48,998 nt of DNA. It comes from Polyangiaceae bacterium. Its GTDB lineage: Bacteria > Myxococcota_A > Polyangia > Polyangiales > Polyangiaceae. The position numbers and the translations under genes were made by a program. The notes beneath the pieces were generated by a model. The model had not been told where the DNA came from, did not search any database, and was given only the letters and a program-made list of their open reading frames with translations. Location of the stretch: NCBI GenBank assembly GCA_029941785.1, contig JAPYTK010000015.1:1-48998 (forward strand), written 5' to 3'. Shown piece by piece: positions 31,093 to 39,612 of this stretch (positions are counted from its first letter, which is position 1; every line of letters begins with the position of its first letter).

Positions 31093-32205
31093 TCAGCCGC
31101 CGGCCGAGCCACCGACAGAAGCACTCGCTTCCACCGACACGCTCACCGACACGGACGCCGAAGCAGCCGCTGAAAAGTCAGCACCAGCGGCCAGTGCAGC
31201 GCAGCCCACACTCTCGGTCGCGGCCGTGAGAACGCCTACGCCCTTGTCAGCAACGTCGATCGCCGCATCCACGAACGCCTGGCCCTTCACGTCGAAGGCC
31301 AAGAAGATCTCTCCCAAGTTGACCTGCAGGTCCGCGACGATCGCCGCGTCGAGTGAACTGACGATGACAACCTTGGGCGGTGTGCACGAAGCCTCTAGCT
31401 TCGCTTCCCCGTCGCAACCAGCAGAGCACTCGGCGTCGATGTCGCATCCGCCGAGGTCCAGCTCGCCTTCGCAGCTCGGCAACTGGAAATCGACGCTGCA
31501 GCCCCCGGTGCACTTGCCCGAGCAGCTCGCCGACGGCGCCACCACTTCGCAGGTCCCCTTGCACTCGCCGGTGCACGAGCCCTTGCAGGAACCGGTGCAG
31601 TTGCCCATGCCGTCCGAGGCGGAGCACTCACCGTCGCACGTGCCCTCGCAGGTACCGCCGCACTTGCCTTCACACGAGACGGAGCCGGTCTCGACCGTGC
31701 AAGAGCCGCTGCATTCCGCCGTACATTCACCCGACAGCTTGCCAGGTTCGCAGGCAATCTCGACCGACGGAGGCGTACAGCTTCCCGACACGTCACAGCT
31801 CGCCTCGCAGCTGAGCTGCGCGGACGCATCGATGGTGCACTCGCCACCTTCGACGGTGATCGCAAAGGTCGCATCGGCTGACACCGCTGCCGTGAGGGAT
31901 GCCGACGCGATGTTGCACGCTGACTCCAGCTCGTCATCCGTCATATCGTTGCCGGCCGGGGCCATCACGTCCATCGCACCAAGGGACTTGGCGATGTTCA
32001 CACAAGCCTCGCCCACGCTCGACTTCATGCTGGCCGAAGCGGTGGTCAGGGCAGCAACGGCATCGTTGAATGCAGTGATCCGCACCTTCACGCTGTCTTC
32101 ACACCCAAAGGGGTCGTCGCCACAGCCGGTCAAAAATCCCGGCGCAGCCAATCCAGCAAACATCAAAGGCATCAATGCCTTGCGTACACGACTTTTTTTC
32201 AACAT
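31093..32205 (-). CDS. Cys-rich lipoprotein with (G-x-C) tandem motifs, 31 Cys
   Basis: 370-aa predicted lipoprotein. Signal peptide with basic n-region and lipobox FLTGC (Cys28). A central stretch (about 130-270) packs most of the 31 cysteines in G-x-C / C-x-G-x-C units such as CGGTCEGTCDGEC and CTGECKGTCE. Regular Cys every 4-5 residues suggests a disulfide-stapled rod or metal-binding surface. The N- and C-terminal parts are Ala/Ser/Val-rich and helical or coiled (for example SASVSVSVSVEASASVGG). The frame could start at GTG 32214, but ATG 32205 lies 10-11 nt after GGGAG and fits best. Own terminator at 31011-31053. No family is recognised. Confidence 0.75.
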   Translation of the reverse strand: MLKKSRVRKALMPLMFAGLAAPGFLTGCGDDPFGCEDSVKVRITAFNDAVAALTTASASMKSSVGEACVNIAKSLGAMDVMAPAGNDMTDDELESACNIASASLTAAVSADATFAITVEGGECTIDASAQLSCEASCDVSGSCTPPSVEIACEPGKLSGECTAECSGSCTVETGSVSCEGKCGGTCEGTCDGECSASDGMGNCTGSCKGSCTGECKGTCEVVAPSASCSGKCTGGCSVDFQLPSCEGELDLGGCDIDAECSAGCDGEAKLEASCTPPKVVIVSSLDAAIVADLQVNLGEIFLAFDVKGQAFVDAAIDVADKGVGVLTAATESVGCAALAAGADFSAAASASVSVSVSVEASASVGGSAGG

Positions 32206-32214
32206 CCCGAACAC

Positions 32215-32460
32215 TTCTCCCTGTGATGCGCCATTCGTGGCGACATTATGGCGACCACGATCATCGACCGCGAACCACCAATCAAGACTTTTTCACTCCG
32301 ACCACCCCGACTGCGCATCAACCGATCCGCAGTAAGCACGACCAATCCAAAGGAAAGCATGGGGCAAGATCAGGGCGACGTCTAGGCATTCATCCATCCG
32401 AATGTACGTCGTTTCTGTGCTCGGCTGGTGGGCGAGAGCGCTTCTGCGCGCCGCTTCGCG
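32215..32460. other. Intergenic between the two Cys-rich lipoprotein genes
   Basis: 246 nt without a convincing ORF. It holds the SD-bearing leader of the 31093 gene. I found an imperfect hairpin near 32430-32457 but no T-run, so no terminator for the upstream gene is claimed. Confidence 0.35.
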
Positions 32461-34050
32461 TCAGTTGGGCTCGACGGGGATATTGGCGGGATAGCAACCG
32501 AAAGCACCGGCGTCGGCGTTGTAAGGAAAGTAGCACTTCTTGTAGACGGAGCTGCTGGGGGTCACGACCGGCTCCTTCATACAAAAGCCATTCGCGCCGC
32601 TGGGGGATTTGGGACAGTCCAGATCGATCTCGCAGCTCGTCAAGAAGAAGGGGTCGTAGCAACCTCGCACGTCGCACGCGAGGCCACTGTCCTTGTCGCC
32701 GCAGTCGAAGTCATCGACGCAATGGGAACAGAAAGAGCCTCCACCGCGGCAGCTGCCCGAGGCCGGCAAGCACGCCTTGCGGCCATCGGCCTCGACGCAG
32801 GTCTCGTCGTTCAAACAGTTGGCTTGATCGTCGCACATGCGCGCGCAGACCTTGACGTCGCCGATCGGGGCGCAAATCTCACCGGCGCCGAGAGCGCAAT
32901 CTTTGTCGGTCTCGCAGGTCGCACACTCGTCGTTGACGAGGCAGCGATTGCGCATCAGACAAAACGAACCCTCGGCGTAGCTGTTGTCATCGGCCCCAAA
33001 CACAGACGGATCCGTGCAGGGCGCCGCGACATCATCGTTCCCTGGGCACAAGTTCGACCCACCCTTTTGGCAGCTCCCATCGGACGTGCAGCTCTTCCCA
33101 TCGCGATATCCGCCAGCGCAGGTGCCGCCGGTGCATGTGCCGCCGCAAATTCGACCTTTCACCCGCTGTGTTCCGCAGTGGTAACCGGCCGGGCACGCGG
33201 CGTCCGAAGCGCAGTCGTCGATGGTACAGTAAGCGTGCGGGTCGCCCTGACCAGCGCTGTTGCACGCGAGCCCGCGGCACGCGCTGGCCGCACAGGTATT
33301 GAAGACACACGACGGTGCGCCATCCTCCGTGCCACACGATCCATAGTTGCAGGAGGCGAGGAAGGTGTCTTCATCGACGCCCGCGACCTTCGCTGCGGCA
33401 CGGCAAGCCGTTTCGTTTTGCACGCAAGCGGCTGGGTTGCCACTACAGGCGAGCAAGTCGCACTGCGCGCCGTTGGGGCAGTAGTTCGAGTAGCGGCAGT
33501 CCGCCGCCGCACAAGACGTCGCCAGGCAGGGCTGCGCGGTATCGGAACACGTTCCCCAGCCCGGCGTGGCTGGATTGGCGACGCAGATTGCGGGATTGCC
33601 GTTGCATGCAGCCGGATCGCAGAACGACCCATCGTCGACGCAATAGGCCTGACCACACGCTTGGCCGAGCGCGCATTTGGTACCGATCCCCAGCCAGCCA
33701 AAGAGGCGGCTGTAACCACGGTCGAGACACACCGTGACGTCCGCACCTGTGTCGTCCTCCTTGGCGGTCCCGCAATGCTGGCTCTCGGGAATGCACGCAC
33801 TGTGGGCGTCGCATTTGAGGCGGCAGATGTTGCTCACGCAGACGTTAGCGTCCTTGCACGCCGCTGGATCGCACTTCGGAACACAGGTCGTACCGTCGTC
33901 GAGCAGGACCCCTCCGACGCAAGGTTCGCCGGGGATCTCCTTGGTCTCTGTCGAGCACGCCACGATCGGCAACAAGCCAGCCATGGCGACGAGCACAACA
34001 CGGACTATCATGCGGAACGATATAGAAACATCAGCAAGTGAGCGACTCAT
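32461..34050 (-). CDS. Cys-rich lipoprotein, 65 Cys, Dickkopf/EGF-like spacing
   Basis: 529-aa exported protein. Start at ATG 34050 follows the SD GAGGAGAA by about 7-8 nt; an upstream in-frame start (34086) is disfavoured. Signal peptide ends in LPIVAC (lipidated Cys about 32). The mature chain has 65 Cys in total, with irregular spacing typical of secreted Cys-rich modules (CDPAAC, CGGTCTGGTC, CETDKDC, CEIDLDC, SFCSHCVDDFDC). Many repeats have the form C-x(4-6)-D-x-x-C seen in myxobacterial extracellular proteins (family knowledge). No catalytic domain seen. Two lipoprotein thioredoxins are encoded divergently, so disulfide formation or repair of this protein is a natural hypothesis. Confidence 0.78.
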   Translation of the reverse strand: MSRSLADVSISFRMIVRVVLVAMAGLLPIVACSTETKEIPGEPCVGGVLLDDGTTCVPKCDPAACKDANVCVSNICRLKCDAHSACIPESQHCGTAKEDDTGADVTVCLDRGYSRLFGWLGIGTKCALGQACGQAYCVDDGSFCDPAACNGNPAICVANPATPGWGTCSDTAQPCLATSCAAADCRYSNYCPNGAQCDLLACSGNPAACVQNETACRAAAKVAGVDEDTFLASCNYGSCGTEDGAPSCVFNTCAASACRGLACNSAGQGDPHAYCTIDDCASDAACPAGYHCGTQRVKGRICGGTCTGGTCAGGYRDGKSCTSDGSCQKGGSNLCPGNDDVAAPCTDPSVFGADDNSYAEGSFCLMRNRCLVNDECATCETDKDCALGAGEICAPIGDVKVCARMCDDQANCLNDETCVEADGRKACLPASGSCRGGGSFCSHCVDDFDCGDKDSGLACDVRGCYDPFFLTSCEIDLDCPKSPSGANGFCMKEPVVTPSSSVYKKCYFPYNADAGAFGCYPANIPVEPN

Positions 34051-34353
34051 GGGAATTCTCCTCGAGCGCCGCACACAACAACTCACGTCCGGTGCGGCTC
34101 CTCACAGAATCACTACGCGTTAACGCTGCAGTTCTCAAGGATCTCCGGTCACCTCGGCCAAACTGCAGCCTCCCTCCATCAATCCAGCGCTGCTGCTTCA
34201 GCTTGACAAGGTGGGGCAAAGCACCTCACAATTTCGCCAGCGTCCCTGCAACACTGCGTTCACCGCGACGGCGCAGCCGGGAGCGACGACTTTCTGTTTT
34301 TGCAATTGTTTCACTTTTTGCGGTTTGACCGTAGATCATCTATCGAGGGCACC
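34051..34353. promoter_or_regulatory. Divergent control region with three inverted repeats
   Basis: 303 nt without a gene. Seen: a 7-bp hairpin GCCGCAC / GTGCGGC (34068-34074, 34092-34098) in the leader of the 65-Cys gene; a 10-bp palindrome GCGTTAACGC (34117-34126); a CTGCAGTT / AACTGCAG pair (34126-34133, 34161-34168); and a plus-strand promoter candidate at 34203-34232. These are by-eye observations. Confidence 0.45.
34203..34232 (+). promoter_or_regulatory. Promoter candidate of the thioredoxin lipoprotein operon
   Basis: A perfect -35 TTGACA (34203-34208), 18-nt spacer and CACAAT (34227-34232). The start point near 34239 would give a leader of about 115 nt before the ATG at 34354. Confidence 0.5.
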
Positions 34354-35202
34354 ATGCGACTCACTTCCCCTTTCGCGCTCATTTGTATAGCGAGCCTGGC
34401 CCTAGGCGCCATCGGCTGTATCGTCGAAGAAGAGAAGATCGTCGACCACCAGGCTGGCGATTTCATTGATCAATCTAGCCAAGACGCTCTCGACCTGTCG
34501 GATGTGATCGCGTATCCGGAAGGCGCCACAGGATTCACGGTTGGCAAGCTGATGCCCAACCTCACGTTCTGGGGCTTCGCCGATTTCACCAAGACCGAGC
34601 TGCAGACCACCGAAGATCCGTCCGGCCTTATGCTTGGCACGTATCGGTTCCAAAAAATCCAGGCAGCGGATTTCTTCAACCCGGACGGCAGCGGAACGTA
34701 CGCCGCGGACTCGCCCTACGTGAAGACCCAAAGCCAAATCGAGGCGACCAAGACCCAATTCGAGGACTTGACGGGACTGTACAGCGGCTTCGATCCGACG
34801 GCGATGCCCAAGGCCGTGGCTTTCCTGGTCTCATCGGTCTGGTGCCCACCATGCAATGCTGAAGCGAAAGATGTCCTTCCGCACAAGTACGCGGAGATGC
34901 GGGCCAAGGGCGGACACATCATGTCGATCCTCTTCGACAGCAAAGATCAGGGCGTACCGGCCACGCTCGATTTCGACCTGGTCAACTGGTCGAACGCCTA
35001 CCAACCGACGTACACGATGGTGATCGATCCGAGTCGAAGCATCGACGCGATCGCGCCACCGTTTTACCCTGGCGGGATCATCGTCGATCCGCGCACGATG
35101 ACGGTCATGCACATCGGCTCGCTCACCGGCTCCAACGAAGCCACCTTCTGGGGGATCTTCGAGCAAGTCATCGCCGGGACTTACGTTCCGCCGGCCGGCT
35201 GA
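34354..35202 (+). CDS. Thioredoxin-fold lipoprotein with WCPPC
   Basis: 282-aa predicted lipoprotein (lipobox GAIGC, Cys22). The N-terminal 120 residues are acidic and beta-rich without a known domain. The C-terminal half is a thioredoxin-like fold with the redox motif SSVWCPPC (Cys164, Cys167) and a later cis-Pro region. The CPPC dipeptide (Pro-Pro) differs from the CGPC of thioredoxin and fits TlpA/ResA or DsbE-type extracytoplasmic reductases or oxidases. The ATG at 34354 has GAGG at proper spacing; an in-frame start at 34300 adds residues without SD. First gene of the plus-strand set; a second thioredoxin lipoprotein follows 13 bp downstream. Redox direction cannot be told. Confidence 0.8.
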   Translation: MRLTSPFALICIASLALGAIGCIVEEEKIVDHQAGDFIDQSSQDALDLSDVIAYPEGATGFTVGKLMPNLTFWGFADFTKTELQTTEDPSGLMLGTYRFQKIQAADFFNPDGSGTYAADSPYVKTQSQIEATKTQFEDLTGLYSGFDPTAMPKAVAFLVSSVWCPPCNAEAKDVLPHKYAEMRAKGGHIMSILFDSKDQGVPATLDFDLVNWSNAYQPTYTMVIDPSRSIDAIAPPFYPGGIIVDPRTMTVMHIGSLTGSNEATFWGIFEQVIAGTYVPPAG

Positions 35203-35215
35203 CTAGGAAGCTACC

Positions 35216-35791
35216 ATGCATCGCACCGCACCCCTGTCGGTCGTCCTGCTCTGTTGTGCCACCGCTTGCGGCCCGGCCACCACCCAAACGACGGGCGGCG
35301 CCACGGCGAATGACGCGACGAAACCGACCACTCCCGCCGAAACCAACTACGAGGAAGCGCCAGATTTCACGTTGCCGACGCTCGACGGCGACAGCGTCAC
35401 GCTCAGCGAACTGCGCGGTGACAAGGTCGTGCTCATCGACTTTTGGTCCACGACCTGCGACCCCTGTCTGCGCGAAATGCCGGAGCTAGTGAAGCTCTAC
35501 AAAGAAAAAAAGAGCAAGGGTTTCACCATCCTCGCCATCACCATCGACGGGCCCGACACGATGGCTCAGGTTGCCTCGGTCGTAAAATCCAAGAAGATGA
35601 TCTTCCCGATCCTGCTCGACGAAGAGACGGAGGTCATGGACCGCTACAATCCCAAGGGGGAACTGCCCTTCACCGCCGTCATTGACCGCAAAGGGTACAT
35701 CCGACTCAAGCGGGCAGGCTATCAAGCCGGCGACACCGCCTCGATGGATTCACTCGTCGCCGCGATCGACGAGGCGATGGCCGACAAGTAG
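35216..35791 (+). CDS. TlpA/ResA-like thioredoxin lipoprotein with CDPC
   Basis: 191-aa periplasmic thioredoxin-fold protein. N-terminal lipoprotein-like signal with Cys18 in CATAC (the -3 Ala makes lipidation less certain). Thr/Ala linker, then the TlpA/AhpC-TSA core: APDFTLPTLDGDSVTLSELRGDKVVLIDFWSTTCDPC (Cys81, Cys84). A cis-Pro in ELPFTAVID and a helix-rich end follow. The TTCDPC site resembles TlpA-type thiol-disulfide oxidoreductases. AGGAAG SD lies 5-6 nt before the ATG. It is cotranscribed with the WCPPC lipoprotein and the outer-membrane barrel candidate. One may reduce or oxidise, the other relay; this is inference. Confidence 0.83.
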   Translation: MHRTAPLSVVLLCCATACGPATTQTTGGATANDATKPTTPAETNYEEAPDFTLPTLDGDSVTLSELRGDKVVLIDFWSTTCDPCLREMPELVKLYKEKKSKGFTILAITIDGPDTMAQVASVVKSKKMIFPILLDEETEVMDRYNPKGELPFTAVIDRKGYIRLKRAGYQAGDTASMDSLVAAIDEAMADK

Positions 35792-35815
35792 GCCGCTGCA
35801 CGCGCGGAGCGGACC

Positions 35816-37885
35816 GTGGTAGAAGATCGCGTGTCCCGAGCTTGGTTGTCATCAGGAGTCGCGCTCACCGCTTTTGCGGTGGCGCTGTCAACGAGCCATA
35901 CGGCAAGCGCCGTGGATCTGCCGAAGGTCGGTGGCAAACCCGTGACGCTCGACATCAGCAACACGACGGAGCTGCTGTACCATTTCGACAATCGCAACCA
36001 CAACGAGGACCCAAACAAGCAGTCCCTGCGACCCAACAACTGGGTCGACGACAATTACGTCGAGTGGCTCAACCGGCTGTACGTCCGCTCGCACTACCGC
36101 AAGCTGTCCTTTGGCTTACGCCTCGACAGCGCAGTTTACGGCCGCACGCTGACCCGCCAACAGGTACAAGACCTCATCGTCGAAGAGCTCGGCCGCTCCG
36201 ATCTCGCCCTCGAGAACAGTTTTGCACGCGAGCTGCATGGTCGTTACACGAACCTGCTTTATCCCGCGAAACTCTGGCTGCGATTCCGACACAAGGGCTT
36301 CGAAGCCACGGTCGGTGATTTTTACGCACACGTCGGTCGGGGTCTGGTGCTCAGCGTACGAAAACTCGACGAGGTTGGGATCGACACCACGGTCCGCGGC
36401 CTCAAACTCAAGCTCAGGAAGAAGCTTGGATCCGTGCGCTTCGACGCGACCGCCTTCGCGGGCCAGCTCAACCCGATCCGCATCGACAAAGCGACAGGCC
36501 GAGTGCTGCACGGCAGTAACAACGACCTATCCAAAGCCCTGTTCTTCGGCTTTCCGCGCGTTGCCGACCTCGCGTATTATGCAACGCCAGACGCCGCCGA
36601 TCCGACGATCGAGCGCGCCAAGCCCAGCTACCTGGAAGACAACATCGTTGGACTCAGCCTGAAAGGGGGGCCCAAGGCCTTCCAGCTTGGCCTCCACGGC
36701 TCGGTACTGCTCCGACAAAGCAACAGCGAGGACAAGGTGCGGTGCATCCAGGCCATCGACACCAGCTCAAGTGCCGCGACCGCCCAAGCCGATGCATGCG
36801 CCACCGACTTTCCTTCGTTCAACGAGCCGGATGCCTCGCGGGCCCACGACCAGATCCGCAACTTCAGTGCATCGTTACGGGTGCCGACCGTCGGAGACGT
36901 CCTCGGCGGCTACGTCGAGGTCGCGGGCCAGCAACAGCTCGACGGCCGCGTGGCGGACATTCTGGCCGACGGCAGCCTTGGCCGAGAAAAGGATCTGTTC
37001 GGCTACGCCATCTATACCAATCTCAACCTCAGCGGCGGACCTCTGACGGCGACCATCGAGGGCAAGCACTACAAGAGCTTCTTTCCGATCGGCGCGAACA
37101 TAGACTTGTCGACGCGTGGTTTTGCGGCGCCAGAATACAGCGTCGTGACCTACAGTCGCCCACCGAACGCCGAGGCCATTTACACCGAGCCCATCGGCGC
37201 CCCCGATGTGTGCGTCACCGGCATGCGATCTCGCCTCGACTGGCGCCTCGGCTCTCATGCTCAGCTGTACGGTTGGTTCGGCCGCTACTCCAGCCTCTCG
37301 GAGATTGATCCACGCAACAACGAATGCGTCGACGAGGCCGCTCTGCGTACCGAAACCTGGGATGGCGCGATCGGTACCGAAATCGAATCCGCCAGCGGTC
37401 GATCGCACTACTGGGCGTGGCTAGGAGCCCGCGATGCCCGGCGCGCCGTCCCGCAGTCCTCGCTCACGAGCAGCCAAAAAAGCGACACCTTCTACCGGGA
37501 AGGGTACCTCAGATACGATCTGACCCAACACCTGCACGGCAATTTCTCGCTGAGCATGCTCGGCTACCACCGACGTCGTTTCGAACCCGATCTCTCCGCA
37601 CAAGTATGGAACGAAGGAGAGAACCTACTCGCGCTCAATTACAATCCGCGCTGGTCTTTCGTTTTTGGTTTTGAGTACCTCACCCGTGAAGGTTATGAAC
37701 CGCTGTATTTCAATGGGGGCCTGCAGTACCGCTCAAAATCGCAAGATCGCTGGTACGACAAACTCGCCGACGCCGTTCGCCTGTTCGTCGGTCAGCGCCG
37801 CTCGGCACTGAGGTGCGTGGGTGGCACCTGTAGGGTCTACCCCGCCTTCGAAGGCGCGAAGGTCGAGCTGGTCTCCCGCTTTTAG
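35816..37885 (+). CDS. Outer-membrane beta-barrel protein candidate
   Basis: 689-aa exported protein. Signal peptide with core about 10-26 (VALTAFAVALSTSHTASA). The rest is long with alternating polar/aromatic strands and short turns typical of an outer-membrane barrel, for example RLYVRSHYRKLSFGLRLDSAVYG, WLRFRHKGFEATVGDFYAHVGRG, HLHGNFSLSMLGYHRRRF and NYNPRWSFVFGFEYLTREG. No plug or TonB box was recognised, so a TonB-dependent transporter is not supported. It starts at GTG 35816 (GGAG SD); GTG 35831 is an alternative. It sits 24 bp after the TlpA-like gene. In Bacteroidetes, barrels and thioredoxin lipoproteins also co-occur, which is suggestive only. Confidence 0.68.
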   Translation: MVEDRVSRAWLSSGVALTAFAVALSTSHTASAVDLPKVGGKPVTLDISNTTELLYHFDNRNHNEDPNKQSLRPNNWVDDNYVEWLNRLYVRSHYRKLSFGLRLDSAVYGRTLTRQQVQDLIVEELGRSDLALENSFARELHGRYTNLLYPAKLWLRFRHKGFEATVGDFYAHVGRGLVLSVRKLDEVGIDTTVRGLKLKLRKKLGSVRFDATAFAGQLNPIRIDKATGRVLHGSNNDLSKALFFGFPRVADLAYYATPDAADPTIERAKPSYLEDNIVGLSLKGGPKAFQLGLHGSVLLRQSNSEDKVRCIQAIDTSSSAATAQADACATDFPSFNEPDASRAHDQIRNFSASLRVPTVGDVLGGYVEVAGQQQLDGRVADILADGSLGREKDLFGYAIYTNLNLSGGPLTATIEGKHYKSFFPIGANIDLSTRGFAAPEYSVVTYSRPPNAEAIYTEPIGAPDVCVTGMRSRLDWRLGSHAQLYGWFGRYSSLSEIDPRNNECVDEAALRTETWDGAIGTEIESASGRSHYWAWLGARDARRAVPQSSLTSSQKSDTFYREGYLRYDLTQHLHGNFSLSMLGYHRRRFEPDLSAQVWNEGENLLALNYNPRWSFVFGFEYLTREGYEPLYFNGGLQYRSKSQDRWYDKLADAVRLFVGQRRSALRCVGGTCRVYPAFEGAKVELVSRF

Positions 37886-37923
37886 CCGCTGCACGCTTTT
37901 CTGATCGGGAGGCCGCTCCGCGC

Positions 37924-37929
37924 TATACT
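37924..37929 (+). promoter_or_regulatory. Candidate -10 box of the 37937 gene
   Basis: GCTATACT carries the hexamer TATACT, ending 7 nt before the ATG at 37937. The spacing matches the other leaderless-type boxes in the window. No clear -35. Confidence 0.4.
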
Positions 37930-37936
37930 CCAATCC

Positions 37937-38707
37937 ATGCGGTGGCCTCTCGCCTTGAGCGTGTTCCTTATGACCCTCGGGGCCGCGCCCATAACGAGCG
38001 CTGTAGAGACCGCGGGCGATCTCACGACGCCCGCCGGTGGACCCTTGCCGATCGACCGGACCGCCGTTCGTTGGCATGCCCCGGCCACCGGCGGCGTGAT
38101 GCAACCGCAATTCGTCAGCGCTCGAATGCTCGCCTTCCTCGCGAGACTGGAAGCGCTCATCGGGGGAACTCCATCGGGAGCTCCGGCTTACGACTCGAAG
38201 CACGTTCGGTTGGCTCTGCAGCGGCACATCACAGAAGTCATCTTGGCAAACTTGCCCGTCGATCCAGAGCCCAAGCCGAAAGAGATCGCCGACTACGCCG
38301 AAGAAGCTCGACATGTGATCGAGAGACAAATTGCAGGCAAACAGACAACGGACGCGAAGAGGCGGTCCGAAGGGAAGGGAACCCGCAACGGCCGCCGACT
38401 CGTCGCCGCAGCAGCCGTCGCCGAGGGCATCGACGCGGAGGACCTCGATGCCCTCCTGTTGCGTCGTGCTCGGGCGAGTTGGTACTTGGATAAGATGGTC
38501 GCGCCCATGCTCGAGCCATCGACCGCCGATCTCATCGCGGTGCAGCGAAGCGGTCAAACGCCGTACACGAAAGTCAGCTTCGCGAAGGCGCGGAGTCAGC
38601 TGCACGACTGGTTTCTCGCGACGCGCTTGGCGATTGCCCTCGACCGTTACTACCGTAACGTGAGGTCAACCGTACGCGTCAAACTGATCATGCCTTCGAC
38701 GCGCTGA
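37937..38707 (+). CDS. Hypothetical secreted protein
   Basis: 256-aa protein with signal peptide (about 4-22, cleavage near TSAVE). The middle is helical and charged (YAEEARHVIERQIAGKQTTDAKRRSEGKG...) and the end is helical and basic. No domain recognised, no Cys in the mature part. It may be transcribed from its own TATACT box rather than from the upstream operon. It ends 12 bp before the convergent UPF0158 stop. Linked by position only to the redox set. Confidence 0.6.
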   Translation: MRWPLALSVFLMTLGAAPITSAVETAGDLTTPAGGPLPIDRTAVRWHAPATGGVMQPQFVSARMLAFLARLEALIGGTPSGAPAYDSKHVRLALQRHITEVILANLPVDPEPKPKEIADYAEEARHVIERQIAGKQTTDAKRRSEGKGTRNGRRLVAAAAVAEGIDAEDLDALLLRRARASWYLDKMVAPMLEPSTADLIAVQRSGQTPYTKVSFAKARSQLHDWFLATRLAIALDRYYRNVRSTVRVKLIMPSTR

Positions 38708-38719
38708 GGGCGACGATCG

Positions 38720-39544
38720 CTAGTCGCCGCCCACTGCCGCGGGCCGCGTGCCGGGAGAGGCCTCGCCGGAATCGCGTTGGTCGTCGCTTTCTGGCGCCAC
38801 GGACGGGGGCCGACTCGAAGACGCCGGCCGACTCGATGGAGGCGAGGGGGAGAAACATCCCTCATCGCTGCCGCTTTCTTCCGGGCTGCGCTGGACGAGA
38901 AAGTCTCCGAATGCAGCAAAATTCTGCAGATCTCGAGGCGACAGGTTTTCGATGATCTCACGTAGATGACGGCGCACACTCTCCGCACCGCGTGAGCGAC
39001 GAGCCGGATCGGAATGCGGCCGCTGACTCGGCGGATCGGACGACGCCGGAATGTCCAACGGTGCCCAGGCCTGGCGTTTGACGGGGTTGAGCGCGTGGGC
39101 ATTGAGCCATGCCTCCATGAAGATCCGTAGACGCTCGCTGCGAAACGCGAACCAGCTCTCGCGCTCTGGCGCATGGCTCATCAAGACATCCTTGAACCGC
39201 CGAAACGCCCCCTTGCCGTCGATGGCTTGCGTGAGATCAAGCTGAAGCTGCGGCTCCTCGACCATGGGAATGTAACGCTCCATCCAACGGTACTGCTCTC
39301 GAGAACTCACCGGATCGATCCGTAAGTAGCTGATATCCGAAGCAATCCGAGCATGCATTTGCGGATCGGCCACGCCGTCCACGATGCGGAGCACATCGCC
39401 GGTGAGGACGTGCAGATAAGAATGAACCTCAGGCGCGTTGTTCTCGAAGGCATCCTCGAGCGCCTCCCAGTCCATCGGCACATCACGTCGGGTTACACCT
39501 GACTCAGACGGGGCCGAATCAGAAGAAGCATCATCAGTAGACAT
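38720..39544 (-). CDS. UPF0158 family protein
   Basis: 274-aa cytoplasmic protein matching the UPF0158 core over about 25-155: VPMDWEALEDAFENNAP, HSYLHVLTGDVLRIVDG, SSREQYRWMERYIPMV, QLDLTQAIDGKGAFRRFKDVL and ERESWFAFRSERLRIFMEAWL. The C-terminal 100 residues are Ser/Pro/Arg-rich and probably disordered. Function of the family is unknown. The ATG at 39544 follows a near-perfect SD AAGGAGGG by 3-5 nt; an upstream in-frame start at 39577 is disfavoured. The leader upstream of the SD carries two hairpins and a 17-bp tandem repeat. Confidence 0.8.
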   Translation of the reverse strand: MSTDDASSDSAPSESGVTRRDVPMDWEALEDAFENNAPEVHSYLHVLTGDVLRIVDGVADPQMHARIASDISYLRIDPVSSREQYRWMERYIPMVEEPQLQLDLTQAIDGKGAFRRFKDVLMSHAPERESWFAFRSERLRIFMEAWLNAHALNPVKRQAWAPLDIPASSDPPSQRPHSDPARRSRGAESVRRHLREIIENLSPRDLQNFAAFGDFLVQRSPEESGSDEGCFSPSPPSSRPASSSRPPSVAPESDDQRDSGEASPGTRPAAVGGD

Positions 39545-39555
39545 ATTCCCTCCTT

Positions 39556-39612
39556 GGGGGAGCCCCCCTTCCCACAATGTGGGCTGAGTAGGACGGTGGG
39601 CTCAATAAGACG
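39556..39612 (-). promoter_or_regulatory. Unusual leader of the UPF0158 gene: two hairpins and a tandem repeat
   Basis: Upstream of the SD on the minus strand lie a G4-C4 hairpin (39556-39568), a CCCACA-x-TGTGGG hairpin (39571-39583), and two abutting 17-bp direct repeats (39579-39595 and 39596-39612) identical at 14 of 17 positions. They may be operator sites or an RNA control element. Confidence 0.5.

Follow-up and report, generated by a model that had tools for sequence, protein, structure and literature searches.

A thioredoxin-fold and DUF6029 barrel operon shared across bacterial phyla, and its possible part in disulfide chemistry at the outer surface

The bacterial systems known to handle disulfides (Dsb, TlpA, ScsBCD) act between the cytoplasm and the periplasm. 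Thioredoxins located at the surface are also known, HBP35 among them, and the way in which disulfides there are made, repaired or reduced is the question raised by a locus of a Polyangiaceae bacterium (Myxococcota, order Polyangiales; assembly GCA_029941785.1, contig JAPYTK010000015.1, positions 1 to 48,998 of the forward strand, a stretch of 48,998 nucleotides here called the window). Two genes for cysteine-rich lipoproteins (P0001 and P0002) face there a set encoding a probable thioredoxin-fold lipoprotein (P0003), a TlpA/ResA-like lipoprotein (P0004) and a predicted outer-membrane barrel of the DUF6029 family (P0005). The two-thioredoxin-plus-barrel set is an old module shared by several phyla, of which the window holds one local form, and its barrel carries an invariant pair of cysteines. 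Our preferred reading, offered tentatively and as plausible rather than probable, is that the module serves thiol–disulfide exchange at the outer membrane or on the cell surface, and that its local clients are disulfide-rich lipoproteins.

The three-gene core within the order and across phyla

P0005 matches DUF6029 (PF19494), a Pfam family of unknown function, scoring 46.5 bits where the cut-off is 27 (E 2.8e-12), and shares with it the GDFY segment and the CX4C tail. This was its only Pfam match at E up to 1, and no TonB-receptor or plug family was among the results. The spacing of the core genes is operon-like, with 13 nt between P0003 and P0004 and 24 nt between P0004 and P0005.

Within the order, relatives of P0005 are present in 40 of 59 genomes and relatives of P0003 in 31 of 59, and the two are kept together in the nearest kin of the window genome. 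The usual arrangement in Myxococcota is thioredoxin lipoprotein, TlpA, DUF6029. Of the 40 DUF6029 loci fetched from the order, 36 have a thioredoxin gene at a distance of no more than 6 kb, 31 a TlpA gene and 28 a Cys-rich gene. Gene calling on these loci placed the P0002 family divergent from the core in most members of the window's bacterial family, with P0001-type genes beyond P0002 in about ten loci. Other families of the same order have a separate type of Cys-rich lipoprotein (CYS12), encoded on the same strand, just before the thioredoxin and the barrel. Of 81 positions immediately next to the core, 29 hold a Cys-rich gene, compared with 7 among 309 genes at a greater distance (p = 4e-16, uncorrected for relatedness, related genomes not being independent). 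The linkage also survives rearrangement, being seen with divergent P0002-type genes, with same-strand CYS12-type genes, and with TlpA upstream or downstream of the barrel. It should be noted that four loci (L098, L099, L102 and L104) have a split module, in which a P0002-thioredoxin-TlpA half converges on a DUF6029-thioredoxin half with a thioredoxin paralog of its own.

A search wider than the order detected DUF6029 in 71 of 189 Myxococcota genomes. In 40 further loci of this phylum the DUF6029 gene usually follows TlpA; a thioredoxin lipoprotein may be present or absent, and a Cys-rich gene is mostly missing. Other phyla were searched using as bait a 72-residue DUF6029-like peptide that was composed for the purpose, not taken from a database, and that had scored 119.7 bits against PF19494 beforehand. 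The search gave 80 loci, spread over Bacteroidota, Chlorobiota, Ignavibacteria and Kapabacteria, 75 of them with a recognised DUF6029 gene. A TlpA-like gene lies directly upstream of DUF6029 in 59 of the 68 loci uncut by a contig end, the gap being in most cases no more than some tens of bases, and an Omp28 (PF11551) gene lies directly downstream in 67 of 68. Among 47 genes found before TlpA, 21 encode a sorting tail of the type IX secretion system (T9SS), 9 an Omp28 domain and 8 an AhpC-TSA domain; judged from these domains, they appear to specify surface-directed thioredoxin-fold proteins. The core is much older than its pairing with Cys-rich genes and occurs without them in other Myxococcota classes and in Bacteroidota, Chlorobiota and Kapabacteria; these genes were added locally, in the window's order and in a few relatives within its class. 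A literature search found no paper describing a TlpA/thioredoxin/DUF6029 module, only passing mentions.

In other Myxococcota classes, a gene of about 450–470 aa is divergent from TlpA-DUF6029 at several loci (L131:8950-10314 and similar positions in L142, L148, L149, L152, L157, L163, L167 and L169), often trailed by a protein of about 330–350 aa. In L131 this gene appears to encode an NtrC-like sigma-54 response regulator. It is possible that the divergent gene regulates the module.

All six reading frames proposed by a first-pass annotation of this DNA are present, and their coordinates, with the likeliest starts, are given in Table 1. The annotation's two minus-strand lipoproteins with 31 and 65 cysteines were borne out in counts, signal peptides and lipoboxes, as were its plus-strand WCPPC thioredoxin lipoprotein, CDPC TlpA-like lipoprotein and 689-aa barrel candidate by frames, lipoboxes, motifs and Pfam. 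One cysteine in each of P0001 to P0004 is the lipid anchor. The divergent gap has the length assigned to it provided that P0002 starts at the ATG at 34050.

Table 1. Features of the locus, in window coordinates.
Feature	Position	Strand	Description
P0001, Cys-rich lipoprotein	31093..32205	-	370 aa, signal peptide and lipobox LTGC
P0002, Cys-rich lipoprotein	32461..34050	-	529 aa, signal peptide and lipobox IVAC
Divergent intergenic region	34051..34353	.	303 nt between P0002 and P0003
P0003, probable thioredoxin-fold lipoprotein	34354..35202	+	282 aa, lipobox AIGC; WCPPC at 34840-34854
P0004, TlpA/ResA-like thiol oxidoreductase lipoprotein	35216..35791	+	191 aa, lipobox ATAC; CDPC at 35456-35467
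P0005, DUF6029 protein, predicted outer-membrane barrel	35816..37885	+	689 aa, Pfam DUF6029 match
Conserved DUF6029 segment GDFYxxxGRGLxLSxRKxDExGxDTTxRG in P0005	36314..36400	+	probable in-folded loop
Invariant CX4C (CVGGTC) of P0005, before the last barrel strand	37814..37831	+	
P0006, secreted protein without Cys	37937..38707	+	outside the conserved module

The same gap had been described as full of inverted repeats, which was not reproduced: a single, weak 9-nt pair was found (34125-34133/34161-34169), along with one sigma-70-like match (+ strand, 34203-34232) and 10 terminator-like matches versus 6.8 expected. The repeat and promoter-like signals do not exceed chance level, and regulation by inverted repeats was rejected. 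As to the proposal that all six genes belong together, the examination of relatives upheld it for five. P0006, which matched no Pfam family, has relatives adjoining the locus in just three close relatives among the 40 loci of the order, with varying position and orientation, and it was therefore left out of the module. Directly downstream of P0006 lie a UPF0158 protein (38720-39577, minus strand) and then a glycerol kinase, both unrelated to the module.

The invariant cysteine pair and the fold of the barrel

The DUF6029 proteins of Myxococcota and Bacteroidota are homologous over their full length (hhalign 99.8%). All 78 Myxococcota proteins keep CX4C, and so do the 71 proteins from the Bacteroidota side that are complete; four further ones, whose C-terminus is missing, are outside the count. 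The motif reads CxGGxCRxxP, with looser forms in Myxococcota (C-x-[GSA]-G-x-C), and supplies six of the 20 invariant columns of the mixed alignment (C667, G669, G670, C672, R673 and P676 of P0005). In 15 Myxococcota and 35 Bacteroidota-side proteins its two cysteines are the only ones. A pair conserved in this way gives a direct molecular reason for coupling the barrel to thioredoxins.

The best view of the fold comes from a Bacteroidota family member (L213:5119-6768), modelled from 63 sequences with a mean predicted local distance difference test (pLDDT) score of 94.1 and a predicted template modelling score of 0.87. The model is a barrel of about 24 long strands, in which the loop preceding the last strand forms a short hairpin (524-528/531-535) that carries CX4C at its tip. 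Counting strands from a periplasmic N-terminus would put the CX4C loop on the outside, together with the conserved loop that contains GDFY/GNFY. No relative of DUF6029 was found when its profile was compared with PDB sequences, the sole match being at chance level (E 0.93). Among solved folds (VIA-align 2), the L213 model is closest, in size as well as shape, to the chaperone-usher pore FimD (3ohn; Z 18.5, root-mean-square deviation 4.5 A over 376 aligned residues), followed by PapC (2vqi; Z 17.6) and by Occ porins (Z 17.5, deviation 5.8). Foldseek alone matched many barrels to the model, MtrB and TonB receptors among them.

The annotation had also suggested export through the barrel, and the fold keeps this idea alive. 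DUF6029 would then be a protein-export pore for the thioredoxin lipoproteins, the disulfide-rich lipoproteins or both, with the TlpA and thioredoxin proteins setting the thiol state of the cargo and the CX4C hairpin acting as lid or gate. Ushers export disulfide-bonded subunits, they are the top fold match, on which the weak model of P0005 itself agrees (FimD), and cargo-like lipoproteins adjoin the barrel gene. However, the Occ porins follow at a small distance, and DUF6029 differs from the chaperone-usher systems in having no sequence relation to them and no usher domains, chaperones or pilins; none of these families was detected by Pfam in P0005 and the flanking genes scanned. Moreover, many Bacteroidota neighbours carry T9SS tails and therefore use another exporter. 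An export pore is thus rather unlikely in our view, although the redox and export readings can overlap, a redox-gated exporter satisfying both.

The conserved pair could also be a structural disulfide, with TlpA and thioredoxin/Omp28 as its dedicated folding factors and the barrel itself in an unrelated role such as glycan or nutrient transport. DsbA and DsbC serve LptD in a comparable way. Invariance of CX4C and operon linkage fit this explanation equally well, and the porin-like fold matches agree with it. In addition, the only paper on DUF6029 that was found mentions the family in passing, in connection with Wzi-like barrels encoded close to genes for polysaccharide export (PMC9603273). Folding a single barrel, however, has no need of surface-sorted thioredoxin/Omp28 proteins or Cys-rich neighbours, and no polysaccharide-export family was among the listed Pfam matches of the Bacteroidota neighbours scanned. 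We consider it unlikely.

Thioredoxin-fold partners and cysteine-rich lipoproteins

P0004 belongs with the TlpA/ResA-like proteins by its Pfam scores (AhpC-TSA 93.1 bits, Redoxin 81.8 bits) and its CDPC motif, while falling below the NCBIfam equivalog cut-offs for ResA (96.3 vs 170 bits), StoA (61 vs 210) and DsbE (27 vs 123). It shares domain and CxxC with the TlpA/ResA/CcmG oxidoreductases, but differs from them in being a lipoprotein, in a CDPC that lacks the usual Trp, and in its linkage to an outer-membrane barrel instead of cytochrome c genes.

P0003 scores at the edge of AhpC-TSA (25.9 bits, cut-off 26; E 9.9e-6) with WCPPC in place, and a sequence search of the PDB found no solved relative. 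It resembles the Omp28/HBP35 proteins (PF11551; PDB 2r2c, 5y1a), which are likewise thioredoxin-like, carry CxxC and are secreted or lipoproteins. The Omp28 profile reaches the solved HBP35 structure 5y1a with E 6.9e-5. However, P0003 has no PF11551 match at E up to 1 and its gene precedes TlpA, whereas Omp28 directly follows TlpA-DUF6029 in Bacteroidota; the profile–profile comparison of the two aligned just 82 columns (59%). HBP35 of P. gingivalis is surface-located and has a measured, CxxC-dependent thioredoxin activity, reducing insulin (PMC2907840). In Paraprevotella clara, the Omp28-related outer-membrane protein 00502 is required for recruitment and degradation of trypsin (PMC9477747). 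Trypsin is rich in disulfides, and one may speculate that reduction of trypsin disulfides is part of its action.

Paralogous thioredoxin lipoproteins encoded elsewhere mostly have no Cys-rich neighbours. Among the exceptions is a paralog without DUF6029 that is flanked by small proteins of 41, 22 and 21 cysteines (L257). Large lipoproteins with thioredoxin-like domains were seen near thioredoxin-TlpA-DUF6029 at two loci (L143:11221-12834 and L135:1666-3036), one being fused to Big_2 and one having 14 cysteines.

Of the two Cys-rich lipoproteins, P0002 has 64 cysteines in the mature protein and P0001 has 30, its core showing CxxxC spacing. Neither matched Pfam, and no solved relative of P0002 was found by sequence search of the PDB. 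P0001 scored 14.6 bits against TIGR04114 (tSAM_targ_Cxxx; curated cut-off 20), and a role as target of a radical S-adenosylmethionine (radical-SAM) system was rejected. Since P0001 relatives occur in 56 of the 59 genomes of the order, usually in several copies and mostly encoded elsewhere than the module, P0001 is a looser associate than P0002. The CYS12 type, with 28–32 mature cysteines, has at most a short repeat region in common with P0002 (hhalign 76%, 74 columns). Among proteins with a recognised lipobox, the number of mature cysteines is even in 16 of 17 of the P0002 type and in 7 of 7 of the CYS12 type, and about 30 cysteine columns are fully conserved within the P0002 family. Cysteines that are even in number and conserved speak for disulfides and against free thiols or metal sites; they do so clearly in P0002, whereas the case for P0001 is less clear. 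P0002 is a candidate client of the module, and P0001 probably a further, looser one.

Metal handling through the barrel, the other function suggested at first pass, found no support, and a metal- or heme-acquisition system, in which Cys-rich lipoproteins bind metal, thioredoxins keep their thiols reduced and the barrel imports the ligand, is very improbable: the Omp28 relative HBP35 does bind hemin (PMC2907840) and TonB receptors are among the Foldseek matches, but the cysteines of the P0002 type, nearly always even in number and many of them fully conserved, fit disulfides, P0005 lacks the Pfam signature of a TonB receptor or plug, and no metal-transport family recurs among the Bacteroidota neighbours scanned.

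Thiol–disulfide exchange at the outer membrane

In the surface thiol–disulfide system that we prefer, TlpA (P0004) and the thioredoxin lipoprotein (P0003, or Omp28 in Bacteroidota) would be anchored at the outer membrane, and would exchange dithiols and disulfides with each other and with CX4C of the barrel. By strand parity, the CX4C hairpin in the last loop would be on the outer side, so that disulfide control could reach the outer leaflet or the surface. The clients in this order would be P0002 and probably P0001, with many bonds to be formed, shuffled or kept correct. The genome encodes a VKOR oxidase and a DsbD-type reductant importer, with no DsbB match found in it; therefore, oxidising and reducing power can both reach the periplasm. 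The analysis establishes the linkage of the genes, the invariance of CX4C, the CxxC motifs, the barrel fold of one family member and the even cysteine counts of P0002-type proteins, whereas the surface side, redox activity of CX4C, the direction of electron flow and the tie to clients are inferred. A bolder version, in which the DUF6029 barrel is the first outer-membrane thiol–disulfide conduit, its redox-active CX4C coupling periplasmic TlpA to surface thioredoxins in several phyla, we hold to be doubtful.

Several observations weigh against this interpretation. In other classes many DUF6029 loci lack a Cys-rich neighbour, and a thioredoxin lipoprotein is absent from some; P0001-type proteins are mostly encoded away from the module, and their cysteine parity is mixed (6 even vs 4 odd among the 10 with a lipobox); CX4C could be no more than a structural disulfide; and P0005 itself gave a poor model (pLDDT 55.7, with Bacteroidota rows in the alignment). 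The dedicated redox pathway for Cys-rich surface proteins that the first-pass annotation envisaged is strongly supported by gene linkage and, unexpectedly, by an invariant CX4C in the barrel, but its Cys-rich genes are local and its sixth gene falls away.

A TlpA-DUF6029-thioredoxin/Omp28 operon that recurs across phyla with an invariant cysteine pair makes the question of outer-surface disulfides directly testable in tractable Bacteroidota, and supplies a hypothesis for what the DUF6029 family does. For myxobacteria-like organisms, the operon points to the abundant and unexplained Cys-rich surface lipoproteins as possible clients. If the conduit version were true, it would mean envelope-spanning control of cell-surface disulfides in several phyla.

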